A program made the position numbers and the translations under genes. 64,000 nt of DNA from an uncultured Prevotellaceae bacterium (GTDB lineage: Bacteria > Bacteroidota > Bacteroidia > Bacteroidales > Bacteroidaceae): positions 1-64,000 of the forward strand of contig OMXS01000009.1 of the NCBI GenBank assembly GCA_900315095.1, written 5' to 3'. The notes under the pieces were generated by a model. It ran no database searches and was not told the DNA's origin. It saw nothing but the letters and a program-made list of their open reading frames with translations. Positions 2,679 through 48,517 of this stretch are shown here, one piece after another (the first letter of the stretch is position 1; every line of letters begins with the position of its first letter).

Positions 2679-3140
2679 TTATTTGTACTGATTAATATCA
2701 ATTGCCTTTGGCTTCTGTGCCTCGTGTGGATGCTCAGTGCCCTCATAAACATAGAGATTGTCGAGCAGAGCGCGGCCCAGACGACCCTTTGGAAGCATAC
2801 CCTTTACAGCATGACGGATGATCTTGTCAATACCGCCCTTGCGCAGACGCAGCTGTGCAGGAGTGTTGAATCGCTGACCACCAGGATAACCTGTGTAACG
2901 GGTGTAGAGTTTGTCAGTCTCCTTCTTGCCAGTGAAGATAACCTTCTCGGCATTGATGATAATAACATTGTCGCCGCAGTCAACATGAGGAGTGAACGTT
3001 GGCTTGTACTTACCGCGAATCAACTTCGCTACCTTAGAGCAGAGACGTCCCACTACCTGGTCGGTGGCATCGACAATCACCCACTCTTTCTGTGCTGTCT
3101 CCTTGTTCACAGAGACAGTCTTGTAACTTAAAGTGTCCAT
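2679..3140 (-). CDS. rplM: Large-subunit ribosomal protein L13 (uL13)
   Basis: Early-assembling 50S protein. The 153-residue product has the WVIVDATDQVVGRL N-terminal motif, the conserved G-D-N-V-I-I-I-N-A stretch, and the AVKGMLPKGRLGRALL motif near residues 113-128. It is the first gene of the rplM-rpsI-rpsB-tsf operon. The roughly 200-base leader in front of it is GC-rich and noncoding, and is described separately as a possible autoregulatory RNA. Confidence 0.98.
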   Translation of the reverse strand: MDTLSYKTVSVNKETAQKEWVIVDATDQVVGRLCSKVAKLIRGKYKPTFTPHVDCGDNVIIINAEKVIFTGKKETDKLYTRYTGYPGGQRFNTPAQLRLRKGGIDKIIRHAVKGMLPKGRLGRALLDNLYVYEGTEHPHEAQKPKAIDINQYK

Positions 3141-3154
3141 GTAATTTTGAAATT

Positions 3155-3345
3155 ATTACTTAAAACGTTTTATATTGCCGGATATGTCGCCATCCGATTG
3201 CGCCTGGCTTCACGCACCTGGGAGCGAGCAGACTCTCCGCCTGCCAGTGAGCACCGATTCACAAACCGCGATGACCGTCATAATCTCATTCAGGTGACCA
3301 CTATTTACACGGTGACTCTGGGGGTTCTAAGGCCCCTCTAAAATT
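3155..3345 (-). ncRNA. Candidate structured leader of the rplM operon
   Basis: Between the promoter-like TAACTTTG (minus strand, 3354-3361) and rplM lies a noncoding stretch of about 190 bases, much richer in G and C than the flanks. Several short stems can be drawn on the minus strand: GGGG/CCCC near 3318-3333, the ATGAC/GTCAT palindrome near 3271-3281, and CGGAT/ATCCG near 3180-3197, close to the start codon. Leaders controlled by L13 are known in other bacteria, so autogenous control by L13 is a reasonable inference. I did not fold it by computation and cannot name an RNA family. Confidence 0.5.
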
Positions 3346-3351
3346 TGTGGG

Positions 3352-3362
3352 TGCAAAGTTAC
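3352..3362 (-). promoter_or_regulatory. Promoter -7 box of the rplM operon
   Basis: On the minus strand this reads GTAACTTTGCA, containing TAnnTTTG, the Bacteroidetes -7 element. No clear -33 TTTG is seen at the usual 19-21 bases, as expected for some strong ribosomal promoters. It would start the long leader of rplM. Confidence 0.6.
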
Positions 3363-3483
3363 TTCTTTTATTCCTAATAAAATACGCAAGGGGAAAGAAG
3401 AAATAAAGATTTATGTTTATTTAACAAATGACCGCTTCTTATTACTTGAACATAAAGACATACAGCTGCCAGGAGATACACTT

Positions 3484-3595
3484 GAGGTTGTCAAGAAGCA
3501 CTTCTGAGGAGGTCAGATGTATACAAGTGAGGTGCTCAAAGGTATATAAATGAGGTGCTCAGATGGCACAAGTGAGAGAACGATTAAGCACTAAT
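3484..3595. repeat. 22-bp-period degenerate array, five units
   Basis: Five consecutive units of 22, 23, 23, 22 and 22 bases (3484-3505, 3506-3528, 3529-3551, 3552-3573, 3574-3595). Each starts with GAG; the middle ones read GAGGTGCTCA or GAGGAGGTCA, then a variable part, then AAGT or AAAT. The array sits in the noncoding gap downstream of the nadD stop (3641, minus strand) and upstream of the rplM promoter. It is related to the array at 14151-14282, which contains TGAGGAGGTC as well. Confidence 0.7.
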
Positions 3596-3640
3596 CACTT
3601 CCTAAAAAGACACAAGCGGCAGAACAACAAGCGTTTTCCC

Positions 3641-4216
3641 TTACTTATAGAGGTGGTTCGACTCGATGTAAGATATTACATCTGGGTGAAGATAGCGGCG
3701 GACTCCGCGACCGTCTGCTATGAGTTGTCGGATAAGTGTGCTGCTCATATTGTAAAGCCGGGTATTTACGAGGCGCACGTTGGGTGGCAGAGAGGCCTCA
3801 TCAATGGGATAGCCGTCACGAGGATAGATGACTATGGGGTAGTTCTCGATTATCTCACGGCTGTTGCGCCACTGGCCGAAGAGTTGCCAGTTGTCAGCAC
3901 CGATGAGGAGGGTGAAGTGGTGCTGTGGATAGTCTTGAGAGAGATGCTGCAAAGTGTTCCATGTGTATGACGGTCGCGGCAAATGGAACTCATAGTCGCT
4001 TGCCACAAGGCTAGGCTCATCTTTGAGTGCCAGCCGCGCCATCTCAAGACGCATATTGTCATCGAGAAGTGACGACTGGGGCTTCAGCGGATTCTGCGGC
4101 GAGACAAGGAACCACACCTCGTCAAGTTGCGCACGCTGCAACAGTTGACGAGCGAGAGCAACATGACCTTTGTGTATGGGGTTAAATGAACCGCCGAAGA
4201 TGCCGATGGAGGACAT
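3641..4216 (-). CDS. nadD: Nicotinate-nucleotide adenylyltransferase
   Basis: Transfers AMP from ATP to nicotinate mononucleotide, giving deamido-NAD in NAD synthesis. The 191-residue product is a normal-length nucleotidyltransferase. It has the GGSFNPIHKGH signature at residues 8-18 (with the HxGH-type HKGH) and the C-terminal SSTLIRQL (ISSTxIR-type) motif, followed by a YLHPDVISYI tail. It lies 24 bases downstream of gmk on the same strand. The yicC-gmk-nadD order is common in Bacteroidetes, but here yicC is separated by two extra genes. Confidence 0.95.
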   Translation of the reverse strand: MSSIGIFGGSFNPIHKGHVALARQLLQRAQLDEVWFLVSPQNPLKPQSSLLDDNMRLEMARLALKDEPSLVASDYEFHLPRPSYTWNTLQHLSQDYPQHHFTLLIGADNWQLFGQWRNSREIIENYPIVIYPRDGYPIDEASLPPNVRLVNTRLYNMSSTLIRQLIADGRGVRRYLHPDVISYIESNHLYK

Positions 4217-7138: not shown

Positions 7139-7144
7139 GAAGAT

Positions 7145-7227
7145 GGTTGAAGGTTGAGGGTTGAGCGAAGTTTGCTAAGAATACTAATGTCGCTTAACCA
7201 TCAACCTTCAACCCTCAACCTTCAACC
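7145..7227. repeat. Word-repeat inverted repeat, GGTTGA family
   Basis: A perfect 20-bp inverted repeat (7145-7164 and 7208-7227) built from reiterated GGTTGA/AGGTTGA words, with a 43-base centre. It lies between two convergent genes, and its right arm ends directly at the yicC stop codon. It could work as a bidirectional terminator. It belongs to the same class as those at 28685, 35167 and 43837. Confidence 0.8.
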
Positions 7228-14133: not shown

Positions 14134-14150
14134 AAGGCATTTTGTATCGT

Positions 14151-14282
14151 TGGGAAACGTATAGCATACAAGTCATTTCCCATTTGTATATGAATGAGGA
14201 TGCAAAAGGGCATCAATGAGGAGGTCAAAAGCCATCAATGAGACAGCAAGAAGGCATCTTTCGCAATGCGAGAGATGCCTTC
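14151..14282. repeat. 22-bp-period degenerate array with terminator hairpin
   Basis: Six consecutive 22-base units (starts 14151, 14173, 14195, 14217, 14239, 14261). Units 3-5 start TGAG and all share A/G-rich centres; units 3 and 4 both end CATCAA. The last two units form a hairpin, stem AAGAAGGCATCT (14248-14259) with 14273-14284, followed by T-rich DNA. The array occupies the gap between convergent rseP and nitroreductase. TTCGCAATGCGA in the last units recurs in the array at 39974. Confidence 0.75.
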
Positions 14283-14284
14283 TT
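14248..14284. terminator. Bidirectional terminator between rseP and nitroreductase
   Basis: A 12-bp perfect stem with a 13-base loop, followed on the plus strand by GTATTTT. It lies 21 bases before the nitroreductase stop and formally overlaps the last two units of the 22-bp array. Confidence 0.7.
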
Positions 14285-14304
14285 GTATTTTAAGGAATTG
14301 CTTC

Positions 14305-19649: not shown

Positions 19650-19654
19650 ATTTG

Positions 19655-19689
19655 AGTTAGGAGTTATAAGTTAGGAATTAGGAGTTATG
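19655..19689. repeat. Single-arm word repeat upstream of ftsZ
   Basis: A tract reiterating GAGTTAGGAGTTA-type words lies directly before the ftsZ start codon, in what would be its 5' untranslated region. No partner arm is seen within 200 bases, so it does not form a hairpin by itself. It has the same word content as the tract at 41695 (GTTAAGGAGTTA). Confidence 0.6.
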
Positions 19690-19717
19690 AGTTTGGATTT
19701 ATTCCTTTTTTTGCCTG

Positions 19718-19748
19718 CAAAGATAGGAAAGATTTTTCATTAGGGCAA
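19718..19748 (-). promoter_or_regulatory. Promoter of ftsZ
   Basis: Minus strand: TTG (19748-19746), 20 bases, TATCTTTG (19725-19718). Spacing and boxes fit the Bacteroidetes consensus. The 5' untranslated region then runs through the GAGTTA word repeat. Confidence 0.75.
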
Positions 19749-19774
19749 CTTTCCGCAAGGTTTGCGGCACGATA

Positions 19775-23146: not shown

Positions 23147-23162
23147 CTATATGTTTTTATAG

Positions 23163-23250
23163 TATTACAAACTGTTTGTAATCTTGTTACAAAGCATCTG
23201 TAATAGTGTTACAAGCGGCTTGTAATAAGATTACAGACGGCTTGTAACAC
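23163..23250. repeat. 22-bp-period array with palindromic units (TTACAA/TTGTAA)
   Basis: Four 22-base units (23163-23184, 23185-23206, 23207-23228, 23229-23250). Each contains TTACAA or TTACAG, a 6-8 base centre, and TTGTAA or CTGTAA, so each unit is an imperfect dyad and repeats with a period of two helical turns. The array lies between the esterase-HAD stop (23267) and the helicase start (23146). Confidence 0.8.
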
Positions 23251-23266
23251 ATTATAAGATGGTTTT

Positions 23267-24271
23267 TCAATGCCCGTTCAACCGTGAGAAATACTCCATT
23301 ATGTCATCCCATGTCTTGAATGTATCGCTTCCCAACTCTATGACTGTGCCCATGAAGGAGCTATGAGGGTTGATGGCGGAGGGCTGAATGAGGAAGTCTC
23401 CGAGCAAAAGTTGCGGTTGGTTGGCAAAGATGATGTGGTCATATGCAGGCACACTGATAACATCTTTCAACCACGACTGCACGTCGGCGCACCCGTCACC
23501 GCTATAGTTGGGCGAAGGAGCAACGATAAAGAGATTGTACGTCTCGAGCAGTTGACGGAACGCCTTGCGCGCTGATGGCTGCTGACCGCCGTTCTTGTCG
23601 CGCAACGCATCGATGCTTATGAATACCACCTGGCGCTCTTTCTTGTTCTGGCGATCGTCTATCCAGCGTATCACAGGTATGACGCTGTTCAGGAAGATGT
23701 CGTCGTTCATGCGGTGCTCACCATGAAACCATATCGCATGACGGTAATGCTCGGAGAAGAGTGGATAGGTATGAACGAGCGGGTCCTCATCGCCGAAGAG
23801 TCCCCAGACGTGCTCTTGCTCCGCTTCTGACGTGTCGGCAAAGCATTGCTCCTGCACATCGTGATATTCCTTCACCATCGCTTTAGTCACAATGAACTCC
23901 TGCACGCCGTCCTTTCTCGGGTTCTGAAAGGTCTGCTTGCCCACCATACCATGCGCGCCCATAGTGTCTGCTATACGAAGAGCAGGGTTTACGAGAATTC
24001 GGTCGAAGCCATGCAGTTGCTCGGTATACATTCCTCCCATCGATGTTCCTATGATGAGGTCGGGCTGCTCGCGCTCTACCATCGAGCGAAGCATGGCAAG
24101 TCCTTCGTGCGGGTCAACGGGAATATCGTCTGCAACAACTGTTGCCGAGGGCAACATGGTGCGTATCCTCGTTACCGTTCCACTTTTTGCAGAAGATGCA
24201 AAGCCGTGAACATACATTATCTTCTTACCCTCCATGATGTCGGGGAATTGCTTTTGATACTGGTTTTCCAT
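23267..24271 (-). CDS. YqiA-like esterase fused to HAD-like domain
   Basis: The 334-residue product has an N-terminal alpha/beta hydrolase part (about residues 16-205). It contains the YVHGFASSAKSGT oxyanion region and the nucleophile motif GTSMGG near residues 98-103, as in YqiA/YcfP esterases. The Asp and His of the triad are likely near residues 161 (GDEDP) and 185 (HR). The C-terminal part (about 214-334) has FISIDALRDKNGG, FIVAPSPN, DHIIFANQPQLLLGDFLIQ and FKTWDDIMEYF, which resembles 5'-nucleotidase-type HAD proteins but seems to lack a clear DxD pair. Substrates are unknown. It is on the same strand as the helicase and divergent from the dynamin pair. Confidence 0.7.
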   Translation of the reverse strand: MENQYQKQFPDIMEGKKIMYVHGFASSAKSGTVTRIRTMLPSATVVADDIPVDPHEGLAMLRSMVEREQPDLIIGTSMGGMYTEQLHGFDRILVNPALRIADTMGAHGMVGKQTFQNPRKDGVQEFIVTKAMVKEYHDVQEQCFADTSEAEQEHVWGLFGDEDPLVHTYPLFSEHYRHAIWFHGEHRMNDDIFLNSVIPVIRWIDDRQNKKERQVVFISIDALRDKNGGQQPSARKAFRQLLETYNLFIVAPSPNYSGDGCADVQSWLKDVISVPAYDHIIFANQPQLLLGDFLIQPSAINPHSSFMGTVIELGSDTFKTWDDIMEYFSRLNGH

Positions 24272-28620: not shown

Positions 28621-28684
28621 AATCATGGGGTCGGTTCTTCTAATCATTTTTAAAGATAAACGTGAATAGTTTAGAATGCAAAAT

Positions 28685-28766
28685 GGAGAATGGAGAGTTA
28701 TGATTAGAACAATGAACAGACCATAAGGACAAGTTCATAAAAAATAATCATAACTCTCCATTCTCC
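28685..28766. repeat. Word-repeat inverted repeat, GGAGAATGGAG family
   Basis: A perfect 21-bp inverted repeat (28685-28705 and 28746-28766) with a 40-base centre. The arm contains GGAGAATGGAGAG then TTATGATT. It lies between the convergent 28036 gene and glnN. It shares ATGGAGAATG and TTATGATT with the arms at 35167-35262 and with the GH2 coding tract near 33688. Confidence 0.85.
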
Positions 28767-28802
28767 GATTTACAATATAAATTGGAGCGATAGCATCAAA
28801 CA

Positions 28803-30992: not shown

Positions 30993-31046
30993 ACAACTCT
31001 ATATTTGTTTCTCTTATGTTGATAAGTAAACTTACTTTATCGGCTG

Positions 31047-31077
31047 CAAAGTTACACTATTTTATTAAAAACAGCAA
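31047..31077 (-). promoter_or_regulatory. Promoter of glnN
   Basis: Minus strand: TTG (31077-31075), 20 bases, TAACTTTG (31054-31047). It leaves a 5' untranslated region of about 45 bases before the glnN start codon. Confidence 0.75.
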
Positions 31078-31123
31078 GTAATTGAGTAGTTCGCTTCAAA
31101 AAAAAATAGAAATCACAAAAAGA

Positions 31124-31381
31124 CCTCACCACCTCACTTTTTAGCTCGCAACGTCCGTGTTTATCGGGGTTTTGGAGAGGGAGGTGTTTTGTAAAGACCT
31201 CACTCAACACCTCACTCAACACCTCACTTTTTTCCTCGAAGTATCTCTTTTTCAGTTTGTTCGCAGAAACATTTTGAGGGAGGTGTTAAGTGAGGTGTTG
31301 AGTGACCTGTTTGAGAAACACCTCCCTTACGATATCCCCTTTGTTTAAAGGGAATTCGAGAAGAAAAGTGAGGTGGTGAGG
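31124..31381. repeat. Nested 258-bp inverted repeat of ACCTCAC words
   Basis: Three pairs of arms are nested around one centre: 31124-31141 with 31364-31381 (18 bp, CCTCACCACCTCACTTTT), 31179-31189 with 31316-31326 (11 bp), and 31212-31229 with 31288-31305 (18 bp). All arms are perfect. The arms reiterate CACCTCAC or CAACACCTCAC. The whole block lies upstream of the glnN promoter in a 520-base stretch with no gene, and could fold into a long branched hairpin. Confidence 0.85.
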
Positions 31382-31407
31382 CGTTTTTTCATTTTCTATA
31401 TATTCGA

Positions 31408-31517
31408 GAAGCAACTGACAGGTCAATGGGAAGCAACTGATATATGAATGAGAAGCGGTTAGTAGACAAATGGGAAACGACCAATCGATCAACGAGAAGC
31501 TATTGTTATATAACTAA
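31408..31517. repeat. 22-bp-period degenerate array, five units
   Basis: Five exact 22-base units (31408-31429, 31430-31451, 31452-31473, 31474-31495, 31496-31517). Each starts GAAGC or GAAAC; units 1-3 end ATGG, ATGA and ATGG. The final unit covers the stop codon of the small minus-strand gene at 31514. The phase TGGGAAACG in unit 4 also appears in the array at 14151. Confidence 0.8.
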
Positions 31518-31714
31518 AGAATGATTCGTTCCAAATCATCAGGAACAACGACACGCCCGCTGAAAACAGTCTCTGCCTCAGCCGTGTAACGCTGGCGGCG
31601 GGAATCAAGAGTGCGGTCTTCTGTGTGATAAAGTATAAGATTCCTTACACTAAGACTCTCTGCCAAACGAGCCACCATTATTATCACCGATAATGCTAAT
31701 TGTCTTTTATTCAT
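31514..31714 (-). CDS. Small unknown protein, 66 residues
   Basis: A 66-residue product, MNKRQLALSVIIMVARLAES..., with an N-terminal hydrophobic stretch that could be a signal peptide or an anchor, and a basic C-terminal part. I recognise no family. Support comes from a perfect promoter 55-85 bases upstream (31769-31798, minus strand) and from the 22-bp array that begins at its stop codon, a position those arrays take at gene 3' ends in this window. It is a plausible real small gene, not certain. Confidence 0.5.
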   Translation of the reverse strand: MNKRQLALSVIIMVARLAESLSVRNLILYHTEDRTLDSRRQRYTAEAETVFSGRVVVPDDLERIIL

Positions 31715-31768
31715 ATTTGTTATTTATATTTGATGTAAGGTTCAGACTATCATTACTTAACGCAATTG

Positions 31769-31798
31769 CAAAGATACTAAATTTCTATTATCTGGCAA
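31769..31798 (-). promoter_or_regulatory. Promoter of the small gene at 31514-31714
   Basis: Minus strand: TTG (31798-31796), 19 bases, TATCTTTG (31776-31769). It matches the Bacteroidetes consensus exactly. Its only sensible downstream gene is the 66-residue ORF. Confidence 0.75.
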
Positions 31799-31897
31799 GT
31801 GTTTCTTTCCCAAAGTAATAAACACTCTGTATTTTCATCTGTAATGTCTCATGTGGTGGGTATTAGATTCTGCGTTCTATATTTTTAAATGATTTAT

Positions 31898-35155: not shown

Positions 35156-35166
35156 TATTGGAGAGT

Positions 35167-35262
35167 GTAGAATGGAGAATGTAGAATTATGATTACCATT
35201 AGGAACTTGTCCTATTTGCCTAAAGCTCAGTTGTAATCATAATTCTACATTCTCCATTCTAC
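35167..35262. repeat. Word-repeat inverted repeat, 30 bp perfect arms
   Basis: Arms 35167-35196 and 35233-35262 pair perfectly over 30 bp around a 36-base centre. The arm is GTAGAATGGAGAATGTAGAA followed by TTATGATTAC. It sits between convergent genes (GH2 and DUF2207) and is the longest perfect dyad in the window. It shares words with 28685-28766. Confidence 0.9.
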
Positions 35263-35290
35263 ATTTTACATTAAAAGAAAAACGCAGTAA

Positions 35291-39974: not shown

Positions 39975-40061
39975 ACAGTTGTATACCTTTCGGCATGCGA
40001 AAGATGGCTTTTCGCAATGCGATTGATGGGCATTTAGGACTCCCATTGATGACCTTTCGCT
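39974..40061. repeat. 22-bp-period degenerate array downstream of GH51
   Basis: Four 22-base steps (39974-39995, 39996-40017, 40018-40039, 40040-40061). Units 2 and 3 both begin TGCGA. The phrase TTCGCAATGCGA matches the array at 14151-14282. It lies between convergent GH51 and the DASS transporter, directly after the GH51 stop. Confidence 0.65.
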
Positions 40062-40076
40062 AAGTCAAAGACCATA

Positions 40077-40113
40077 AAACGCGGAACGAAGCATAATGTT
40101 TCGTTCCGCGTTT
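40077..40113. terminator. Terminator between GH51 and DASS transporter
   Basis: A 14-bp perfect stem (40077-40090 AAACGCGGAACGAA and 40100-40113) with a 9-base loop, flanked by A/T-rich DNA on both sides. It suits both converging transcripts. Confidence 0.75.
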
Positions 40114-40149
40114 GACATATATGTAAAACTATAGTTTGTTTTCCTAATG

Positions 40150-46788: not shown

Positions 46789-47083
46789 GTGATAATTCAC
46801 GAAACATCCTTATTTTGATGCCAACATTTGAGAATTATTATGAAAAAAGTGATTTGTATATTAGTCACATGTGTCTGCAGCCAAACATTAATATCATTAT
46901 TCATCCATAACAAGTGCTAACATATTGAATTTCTTGAGAAAACACTCTAAATAATCTGCCAATAATAGTATTTTCCCCATTTGCGACCTTGTTGCAAATT
47001 ATTTTTCGTACCTTTGCAAATGAATTATTATACTTAACAAGGTAATTGAAAATCTTGAAATCGTAAAATTGTCCAATAAACCC

Positions 47084-48400
47084 ATGCTGCAATATATAGA
47101 GAAATACTGGGATGCACTGATAATGATGCTTGCGGAGATGGCGCCCTACCTGCTGTTGGGATTCTTCTTCGCAGGACTGCTGCGTGCCTTTGTGCCTAAA
47201 AGCATATACAGGAAACATCTCGCACCGCGCAACATGAAGAGTGTGGTGAAGGCGGCGCTGCTTGGCATTCCGCTGCCGCTATGCTCTTGCGGAGTGATTC
47301 CTACAAGTGTGGGGCTACGCCGAGAAGGTGCTTCACACGGAGCATGCACCAGTTTTCTCATCGCTACGCCGCAGACGGGAGTAGATTCCATAGCAGCAAC
47401 TTACTCACTCATGGGACTTCCCTTCGCCATCGTGCGCCCCATAGCGGCACTCTTCACCTCAATGTTCGGCGGATGGCTCGTGAATAAGTTCGCCCATGAA
47501 GACGAAACGCTCTCTGAAGAAGCGACAAAGGAAACTGCGGAATGCAGCTGCGACCAACAAACATCACCCTCATTTTGGAACAACTTCATCTCCGCAATGC
47601 GTTACGCATTCGTAGAGATGCTGCAGGATGTGGGCAAATGGCTCGTTGTTGGCTTGCTTATCGCGGCACTTATCACCGTCGCCGTACCCAACGAATGGCT
47701 CGCCGCACTTCACGATTACAAACTGCTGAACATGCTGATAGTGCTCGCTGTAGCCATCCCGATGTACGTCTGCGCCACAGGAAGCATACCCATCGCTGTG
47801 TCGCTGATGGCAAAGGGGCTGACACCAGGTGCGGCATTAGTGTTGCTGATGGCTGGTCCCGCCGTAAACAGCGCCTCGATGCTCGTTGTGGGCAAGGTGT
47901 TCGGGTGCCGCACATTGCGGTTATATCTCACCGCTATAATTACTGGCGCTGTAGTGTTCGGGCTTTGCATCGACTACCTACTGCCTCAGCAATGGTTCAA
48001 AGTAAGCGGTATGATAATGAGCGGAGGCCACTGTGCCCATTGTCTTGGCACAATGGACTGGGTGTGGATGACCATTTTCCTCCTTTTACTTGTCAACGCC
48101 TTTGTCGACCGCCTGCGCCATTCGTGGATGCTGCGGAGAGAAAAGAGCAAAGAGGAAAGAGGAGAGCAAAATATTAAAGAGGGAGATACGGTTTCCGACA
48201 TTACCATATACGATGTTAAAGAGATGGCATGCAACCACTGCAAGGCGAACGTTGAGAAAATCATCAGCGGCATCGCTGGCGTAGAGAGCGTTGAGGTTGA
48301 CCTCGTGAAAGGCATCGCCTACGTTCACGGACAGCATGACCACAGCGAGGTGGAACGACAAGTCACCGCCAATGGATATCCCACCACCTTAAAGGTATAG
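47084..48400 (+). CDS. Permease with C-terminal HMA metal-binding domain
   Basis: Likely a copper or other soft-metal efflux permease of the SO_0444 family (DUF318-like). From ATG 47084 (an in-frame TTG 15 bases upstream is possible) the product has 438 residues. About eight membrane segments carry the CSCGVIP motif (near residues 67-73) and a second half with cysteine-rich loops ECSCDQ and GGHCAHCLG. The C-terminus (about 370-438) is a heavy-metal-associated domain with MACNHC (CxxC from residue 383). The fusion of permease and metallochaperone would pass the metal to the pore. It stands alone and is convergent with glmS. Confidence 0.85.
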   Translation: MLQYIEKYWDALIMMLAEMAPYLLLGFFFAGLLRAFVPKSIYRKHLAPRNMKSVVKAALLGIPLPLCSCGVIPTSVGLRREGASHGACTSFLIATPQTGVDSIAATYSLMGLPFAIVRPIAALFTSMFGGWLVNKFAHEDETLSEEATKETAECSCDQQTSPSFWNNFISAMRYAFVEMLQDVGKWLVVGLLIAALITVAVPNEWLAALHDYKLLNMLIVLAVAIPMYVCATGSIPIAVSLMAKGLTPGAALVLLMAGPAVNSASMLVVGKVFGCRTLRLYLTAIITGAVVFGLCIDYLLPQQWFKVSGMIMSGGHCAHCLGTMDWVWMTIFLLLLVNAFVDRLRHSWMLRREKSKEERGEQNIKEGDTVSDITIYDVKEMACNHCKANVEKIISGIAGVESVEVDLVKGIAYVHGQHDHSEVERQVTANGYPTTLKV

Positions 48401-48410
48401 CTTTCGGTAC

Positions 48411-48498
48411 GCCATTAGTATATGTTTCACACTCCCAAACATGCTTGATTGGAATGCGAAACACCCTTTATTGACGTGCAATAAAGGGTGTTTCGCTC
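48411..48498. repeat. 22-bp-period array ending in 18-bp hairpin
   Basis: Four 22-base steps (48411-48432, 48433-48454, 48455-48476, 48477-48498). The last two are mutually inverted: GCGAAACACCCTTTATTG (48456-48473) pairs perfectly with 48479-48496 around a 5-base loop. This gives a terminator for convergent permease and glmS. The phrase GCGAAA recurs in other arrays. Confidence 0.7.
48456..48496. terminator. Bidirectional terminator between permease and glmS
   Basis: Perfect 18-bp stem with a 5-base loop, 22 bases from the glmS stop. It is embedded in the 22-bp array just described. Confidence 0.85.
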
Positions 48499-48517
48499 GG
48501 TAATATATGCTTAATGA

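Follow-up and report, generated by a model that had tools for sequence, protein, structure and literature searches.

Family-wide 22-bp tandem arrays, often palindromic and spelled in lineage-private words, at gene ends of Bacteroidaceae

Intergenic regions of Bacteroidaceae carry degenerate tandem arrays with a step of 22 bp. These arrays extend across the sampled genomes of the family, are often palindromic, use private words in some lineages and lie mostly at gene ends, and we consider this finding sound. It is larger than a first-pass annotation had it, which described six blocks in a 64,000-nucleotide stretch of an uncultured Prevotellaceae bacterium (contig OMXS01000009.1, positions 1 to 64,000, hereafter the window). 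Our tentative reading, the best supported of those considered and in our view somewhat short of an even chance, is that the blocks, as members of this family-wide set, are helically phased strips for a putative dimeric DNA-binding protein acting at gene ends.

The source genome of the window (G000) is a 3.24 Mb, Prevotella-type genome from the rumen. Judged by the GH3 protein, its closest named relatives are Prevotella sp. UBA4330 (91% identical, genome G041) and RGIG7809 (87%, genome G042). The six blocks with a 22-base step are real. Tandem Repeats Finder recovered five of them at period 22 or 23 (Table 1); the block at 48411 was missed by the program. When the 28 intergenic segments of the window were pooled and compared with dinucleotide shuffles, lag 22 reached a z of 4.6 and lag 44 a z of 3.3. 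Other lags equalled or exceeded lag 22, namely 7 (z 8.7), 3 (4.7) and 14 (4.6), of which 7 and 14 belong to a distinct kind of array. In a sample of 624 kb from the same genome, made up of the window and 28 stretches chosen without regard to matches, 19 of 273 segments, one of them a TA run, scored at lag 22, versus a mean of 0.6 in five shuffles.

With a stricter score (at least 16, one period allowed for each segment), period 22 is assigned to just two blocks of the window, 2 and 3, and period 23 to block 1; the scores of blocks 5 and 6 (13.0 and 12.2) are below the threshold. Another repeat in the spacer of block 4 gives that spacer a period of 12, and block 4 is not one of the 66 period-22 arrays described below. 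The glutamine synthetase-LacZ spacer holds 12-bp repeats at 31192-31311 (ACCTCACTCAAC at 31197-31228 and GAGGTGTTAAGT at 31280-31305) with a dyad at period 12. By eye, the units differ widely yet recur in style, as the annotation had said; blocks 1, 2, 4 and 5 consist of related-looking words, and block 3 is plainly palindromic. That all six blocks lie just past stop codons was likewise borne out. The stop adjoining block 4 (31408) is that of a short ORF for which a Pfam search gave no match; it matches only the C-terminal end of a G041 frame and looks like the remnant of a decayed gene.

Table 1. Blocks and adjoining features in the window (periods called by Tandem Repeats Finder, TRF, in brackets; z, lag-22 score of the segment named)
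Feature	Coordinates	Strand	Placement	Evidence
Block 1, 22/23-bp units of TGAGGTGCTCAGATGTATACAAG type	3484..3577		3' of stop of gene 3641-4216(-), 5' of L13 leader and gene	TRF 3505-3576 (23); z 1.8 in 3141-3640, where 23 fits better; dyad p 0.007 at 23
Block 2, GCATCAATGAGGATGCAAAAGG-type units	14151..14273		between two convergent stop codons	TRF 14193-14258 (22); lag score (14190-14273); z 6.2 in 14134-14304; dyad not significant
Terminator-like hairpin, bidirectional, last block 2 unit plus inverted copy	14248..14284			sequence; 14247-14285 matches itself on minus strand
Block 3, five palindromic units TTACAA-N5-TTGTAA-N5	23154..23265		directly 3' of stop of gene 23267-24271(-)	TRF 23159-23227 (22); z 7.0 in 23147-23266; dyad z 5.5, p 0.002
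Block 4, GAGAAGCAACTGACAGGTCAAT-type units	31406..31502		past stop of ORF 31514-31714(-)	TRF 31406-31456 (22); z 2.3 in 30993-31888; dyad p 0.06
Short ORF, 66 aa	31514..31714	-	stop borders block 4	aligns with C-terminal end of longer G041 frame
Block 5, CTTTTCGCAATGCGATTGATGG-type units	39975..40075		between convergent stops	TRF 39988-40029 (22); lag score; z 2.6 in 39975-40149
Perfect terminator-like stem AAACGCGGAACGAA/TTCGTTCCGCGTTT	40077..40113		3' of block 5	sequence
Block 6, short degenerate 22-bp array	48401..48455		past stop of 47069-48400(+)	z 4.4 in 48401-48517
Perfect terminator-like stem	48456..48496		after block 6	sequence

To each intergenic segment of nine sequence groups we assigned one fundamental period (range 5-60, score at least 16). 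The Bacteroidaceae groups comprised the source genome, with stretches chosen without regard to matches; G041 and G042; 20 genus members with at most 20 kb each, all surrounding one orthologous gene; an extra 120-140 kb from each of G010, G016 and G024; and 32 loci of Bacteroides, Phocaeicola, Mediterranea and others. Loci L011-L048 surround the GH3 orthologue and were assigned to Bacteroidaceae from their record titles, L047, with a Planctomycetota title, being excluded from both groups. Genes were called as the longest ORFs of at least 100 aa, which misses short genes.

The fundamental period was 22 in 66 of 1010 Bacteroidaceae segments, 21 in 9 and 23 in 8, and every other period from 13 to 40 gave at most 5 arrays. 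The G041/G042 sample also covers stretches orthologous to the window, the source of 7 of its 14 arrays, as well as some contigs that match block 1. When the window and the stretches orthologous to it were set aside, 57 arrays remained at 22 (33 with a dyad), 9 at 21 and 7 at 23. Period 22 occurred in none of 183 segments of other Bacteroidales, in none of 96 segments of E. coli K-12 and in no segment after a single dinucleotide shuffle of each. Harmonics of 22 were sharp (lag 44 in 55 segments, lag 66 in 26), and array length had a median of 4.6 units (range 2.2-13.2). One genus genome, G024, gave no array at 22 and two at 44 among 49 segments. The lag-22 peak, whose absence genome-wide the annotation had named as fatal to its reading, exceeds shuffles well outside the window; one further sample behind this statement was partly placed on matches. 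A second degenerate kind of array, with a period of 7 or 8, was seen in the window at 7139-7227, 19650-19774, 28621-28802, 35156-35290 and other places. Periods 7 and 8 account for 53 and 36 of the 1010 Bacteroidaceae segments, and for 3 and 4 of the 183 outside; such arrays have nearly no dyad symmetry at the multiples 14 and 16 and often touch gene ends or starts.

The symmetry of the units is a new finding, overlooked in the annotation. Each array was folded on its period and the resulting profile compared with its own reverse complement, with column-permuted profiles as the null. A dyad at p ≤ 0.01 was present in 37 of the 66 arrays at period 22, in 1 of 9 at 21 and in 4 of 8 at 23; the remaining 29 arrays at 22, block 2 included, had none at this level. 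Among control arrays at lags 14 and 16 (four of the groups) 1 of 63 had a dyad. Lag 24, which also picks up neighbours of true 22/23 arrays, gave 3 of 16. Since a repeated palindrome is symmetric about two centres in every period, the arrays read X-a-X'-b, 22 letters in total, as in the block 3 unit TTACAA-GCGGC-TTGTAA-TAAGA; in the 37 palindromic arrays a dyad centre thus recurs every 11 bp. ACAAAGTTAATAACTTTGTTCA is a palindromic 22-letter unit found at several places, and further palindromic words are GGTAAAAGGTAAGCTTTTGCAT (consensus of one G010 array), TAGTTTCACCATGGTGAAACAT (G003) and CTTTAAACTATCAGTTTACACG (consensus, Mediterranea). Within some arrays (L195, L032) the palindrome shifts from unit to unit and the step stays constant.

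Arrays, species and orthologous loci differ in their palindrome but not in the 22-bp step. At the block 3 locus the array runs at 22 bp in all three genomes, with TTACAA/TTGTAA in G000, CAGTACG/CGGACTG in G041 and TTACCA/TGGTAA in G042 (spacers of 120, 120 and 186 bp). Similarity of these units to the window is 0.35 for G041 and 0.62 for G042, which has the same change in both arms. The block 5 locus has similar arrays in G000, G041 and G042 (similarity 0.93 and 0.83), and the block 6 locus of G041 holds a palindromic array of other units, with its best score at lag 20 (30.6) and 24.6 at lag 22. Block 2 is nearly identical in G041 (0.96) and absent in G042, block 4 has an array at the orthologous place in neither, and block 1 is absent in G042. 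In G041, a 3.7-kb spacer including an ACAAAG palindrome array (L145, G041:C30:57000-62200) takes the place of the 500-bp spacer that holds block 1 in the window. Block 2 plus its terminator shows 8 differences from G041 in 125 bases; in the two genes on either side, identity at third codon positions is 78%. The slower change of the block is weakly a sign of constraint, which is not special to the array because the whole spacer is 89.4% identical and a neighbouring array-free spacer 87.6%.

This coming and going of arrays, as of block 2 in G042 and block 4 in both relatives, would suit a passive or selfish dispersed minisatellite, that is, an ancestral 22-bp element that was multiplied and is tolerated 3' of genes, keeps its period by descent, drifts in sequence and has no role in binding. 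We regard such an origin as somewhat unlikely. That symmetry survives the replacement of the sequence, as it did at the block 3 locus, is not what one would predict from the drift of a palindromic ancestor, nor does the slow change of block 2 relative to adjacent third codon positions speak for it. Dispersal itself is evident. Block 1 belongs to a dispersed family with at least 39 further matches in G000 (of 75 candidates 40 were scored, and every one of them, block 1 included, matched) and at least 27 in G041 (40 of 87 candidates scored). Several copies have, by eye, a common leader and tail, and copying is therefore part of the story, just as it is for BrickBuilt (PMC4596501) and may be for PINSR (PMC4755523). 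At least seven places in G041 carry the same ACAAAG word pair 66 bp apart, and several G016 arrays have flanks in common, which again fits a minisatellite, whereas nine G010 arrays with a common word gave a single 19-bp flank match. The comparable BrickBuilt and PINSR elements, as far as their published descriptions are drawn on here (PMC4596501, PMC4755523), also lend it weight, and the scarcity of arrays near promoters (see below) could be plain purifying selection. We treat the spread of the arrays as a separate matter from their role: at least one word family, that of block 1, has been copied to many places as an element with common flanks.

In some lineages the words are private. Unit similarity is 0.496 within a genome versus 0.321 between genomes (label permutation p 0.001); G010 (0.65) and G016 (0.71) use mostly one word each, and G000, G041 and G042 several. 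With one mismatch allowed, TAAAAGRTNAYCTTTTA occurs at 118 places in G010 and at 0-11 in eight other genomes (reversed control, 0-2). ACAAAGTTAWTAACTTTGT was found, with two mismatches, at 101 places in G000, 153 in G041 and 90 in G042, and at most once in each of six others. With one mismatch it was present in 3 of 201 Prevotella genomes (53, 85 and 46 copies) and in none of the other 198; besides the source genome, the bearers are G041 and G042, judged by identical coordinates. Private words of this sort would serve as sharp lineage markers, ACAAAGTTAWTAACTTTGT being all-or-none across the 201 genomes. Word matrices, built from the very arrays that they score, gave 57 matches in arrays, 3 elsewhere in intergenic DNA and 1 in a gene over 140 kb of G010, where both phases of the palindrome can count, and 36, 19 and 6, respectively, over 160 kb of G016. 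Register is kept across the junction of two different words within an array. In 29 clusters of the ACAAAG module, a CAARTGRG-like flanking word, picked after viewing the flanks, stood at an offset of 11 (mod 22) in 31 of 37 cases, of 12 in 5 and of 10 in 1.

Palindromic units could also work in RNA, as tandem 3' UTR hairpins. These would stop transcription or shield the 3' ends of mRNAs, and the terminator would be made by the last units. The arrays do fold: all 66 had a folding z of -4.35 versus -1.75 for control spacers (controls cut at 100 bases, arrays with a median of 100), and by eye some adjacent G010 units can form near-perfect 15-bp stems next to T-runs. Folding showed no sense-strand advantage, however. 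In the 39 arrays of tandem spacers z was -4.69 for the sense and -4.94 for the antisense strand, with the sense strand better in 17 of 39. Mispaired arm positions, read on the gene strand of these 39 arrays, comprised 102 G.T and 97 A.C (ratio 1.05, where composition predicts 0.95), and 69 and 53 in the 28 of them with a dyad (1.30, with 1.06 expected). By comparison, 47 terminator-like hairpins, picked on Watson-Crick pairs only, had 24 G.T and 9 A.C. These counts are noisy, since eleven convergent arrays, read on an arbitrary strand, gave 42 and 18.

Compensatory changes were not found either. In 46 arrays with a dyad at p ≤ 0.05, arm complementarity was 0.574 to the arm's own partner and 0.572 to a neighbouring unit. 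A deviant base was matched by its partner in 159 cases per thousand, with the centre set on non-local pairs, versus 193 for the arm of another unit; with both centres, the figures were 173 and 191. A whole-unit comparison agreed in giving no compensatory changes between arms. Our first compensation test had shown an excess (0.563 versus 0.525, z 5.3), which is explained at least partly by a bias, the centre having been chosen on the same pairs. A pattern-selected covariation test, biased by its mismatch limit, gave no positive covariation, and close pairs of arrays had too few substitutions for compensation to be judged (6 for L032/L033, 6 for L042/L043 and 8 for the window and L009). L195 alone displayed strong unit-level pairing (0.70 versus 0.44, p 0.0015). 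In an Rfam search of the window the arrays stayed below the cut-off of every family; the sole match, at 3256-3336(-), was the L13-Bacteroidia ribosomal protein leader (RF03127), upstream of the L13 gene at 2679-3140(-).

The arrays thus lack the marks of a structured RNA, namely strand-specific pairing, tolerance of G.U and compensatory changes. In addition, stems are weak and A/T-rich in many words, and a fixed 22-nt step has no reason in RNA. We therefore think that RNA-level elements are an unlikely explanation. The lack of a clear G.T excess, the equal folding of both strands and the failure to find compensation favour a site in double-stranded DNA, bound by a dimeric protein, over an RNA hairpin. 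A word that is symmetric as a whole but whose arms do not compensate each other suggests, in our opinion, a site for a protein dimer.

Placement is mostly at gene ends. The annotation had held that its reading would fall if arrays were equally common at 5' ends, and the counts went the other way, with divergent spacers depleted and stops favoured. Divergent spacers held 8 arrays versus 18.1 expected from length-matched spacers (P 0.005), convergent spacers 19 versus 12.9 (P 0.03) and tandem spacers 39 versus 35.1. In 30 of the 39 tandem spacers the array was closer to the upstream stop (median distances of 70 bp to the stop and 201 bp to the next start). The spacer of block 4 was called divergent by the gene caller, and block 4 is not among the eight divergent arrays.

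Terminators speak for an action at the RNA level. In the blocks at 14151, 39974 and 48411 (blocks 2, 5 and 6) the last units either make up a terminator stem or have one directly after them, as the annotation had remarked of some arrays, with the caution that palindromes are easily called terminators. Of 31 terminators called in array-bearing tandem spacers, 17 were inside the array, which makes up 25% of those spacers. The idea that arrays substitute for terminators found no support in spacers of at least 150 bp, where terminators were as common or commoner with an array. In convergent spacers with versus without an array they numbered 10/11 versus 20/36 above 350 bp and 5/7 versus 25/50 at 150-350 bp; the corresponding figures for tandem spacers were 12/23 versus 43/96 and 5/11 versus 47/161. 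Shorter spacers gave 0/1 and 0/4 with an array versus 31/71 and 30/220 without.

If the arrays are strips for a dimeric DNA-binding protein, the symmetry would be read in double-stranded DNA by the protein dimer, and consecutive dimers would sit on one face of the helix, 22 bp being close to two turns. The annotation had proposed proteins on one face from the period; the dyads and the strict 11/22 register fit this proposal of a putative binder. Such a protein would occupy gene ends as a roadblock, an insulator or a topological clamp, and word and binder may change together between lineages. The arrays would then be stepping-stones for a paired DNA-binding protein, predicted to mark or insulate gene ends. 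Against a protein strip, G000 has several unrelated words, so that one sequence-specific protein would not read them all. A fuller version of the proposal, which we rate as rather unlikely in its entirety, is a hitherto undescribed gene-end system in which each genome has a lineage-private, palindromic 22-bp word in about a hundred copies, grouped into arrays, and a putative fast-evolving dimeric protein reads them. This protein would polymerise on the helix by one turn per protomer and form a fence between transcription units, both convergent and consecutive ones; the word would co-evolve with its binder until related species no longer share either, with the geometry fixed family-wide.

If the strip reading is right, a protein-DNA array of fixed geometry and free spelling marks the gene ends in a family that is dominant among gut and rumen bacteria. 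It would offer a new handle on the separation of transcription units, on DNA topology between convergent genes and on the way in which a DNA-binding protein changes in step with a hundred sites. On the modest reading, the arrays would be a 22-bp minisatellite present throughout the family and spelled in private palindromic words; this alone would account for intergenic repeats that lack annotation in these genomes. As for the first-pass annotation as a whole, the period, the 3' placement and some of the terminators stand, while the palindromes, the dispersal of block 1 and the lineage specificity of the words had escaped it.

It had also stated that it knew of no described family of this kind. 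For family-wide 22-bp palindromic arrays we found no description in the open-access literature (subscription journals were outside the scope), while related elements, namely BrickBuilt, PINSR and REPs, are in print. BIMEs are REP-type elements and are grouped with REPs among the closest known systems. Heptanucleotide STRR arrays of cyanobacteria are degenerate, short-period and intergenic, with a period of 7. They belong to a different phylum and resemble only the period-7/8 arrays of Bacteroidaceae, not the 22-bp ones.

REP sequences with their RAYT transposases share with our arrays that they are extragenic palindromes, have lineage-specific words and are often grouped, as described in the parts of the literature considered here (PMC3733652, PMC6006769). 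REPs are described there as lying mainly downstream of coding regions (PMC3733652), in spacers of unidirectional and convergent genes, and the arrays, downstream of genes in tandem and convergent spacers, are placed in the same way. Transposase-driven extragenic palindromes, either REPs with a RAYT or a MITE driven by an insertion sequence, would account for dispersal, palindromes and placement alike, and Y1 transposase genes are indeed present, with one each in G000 and G041 and two in G042. Three of the four Y1 loci (G000, G041 and one of G042), however, are flanked by a different, GTAG-tagged palindrome, and none was seen at the fourth; the spacers around all four loci in the three genomes held no 22-bp array. 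Several words per genome, with no terminal GTAG or CGTC tag seen by eye in the consensus words inspected, also argue against a RAYT-REP system, which we reject, and make transposase-driven palindromes in general quite improbable. L219 (1236-1359) and L218 (1195-1353) represent such RAYT-like Y1 transposase genes with inverted GTAG-tagged palindromes (GTAGGGGCGTACC...) in their flanks; some elements of the block-1 type have pieces of the GTAGGGGCGTACC palindrome in their leader as well. A GTAG or CGTC tag marks REPs, their dimers have a variable spacing (20-100 bp in most), and head-to-tail dimers are given as absent or rare in most genomes in the parts of these sources that treat them (PMC3733652, PMC6006769). 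Our arrays, in contrast, keep a constant step of 22 bp, and the palindrome beside the local RAYT is a different one.

PINSR of Prevotella intermedia and P. nigrescens resembles the arrays in being intergenic, present in many copies (177-184 per genome) and confined to one clade within Prevotella (PMC4755523). It is also presumed non-coding and, in the description on which our comparison is based, without terminal inverted repeats; it differs in being a 188-bp repeat (PMC4755523). BrickBuilt, a MITE minisatellite of Porphyromonas gingivalis, consists of 23-nt imperfect tandem direct repeats in 19 intergenic copies, many with a leader and a tail around the repeats, and has a variable unit number and predicted stem-loops; terminators or polyadenylation sites were predicted around 10 of the 19 copies (PMC4596501). 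It thus resembles our arrays as an imperfect, short, intergenic, dispersed tandem repeat with a variable number of units. According to the same account, though, BrickBuilt has one word with a 23-nt unit in one species and P. gulae (PMC4596501). In our data 22 was the fundamental period in 66 arrays versus 8 at 23, and only block 1 of the six fits 23 better. The Bacteroidaceae arrays belong to another family and differ from BrickBuilt in their 22-bp step, in their many words and species, in the symmetry of their units and in having common flanks in some copies only.
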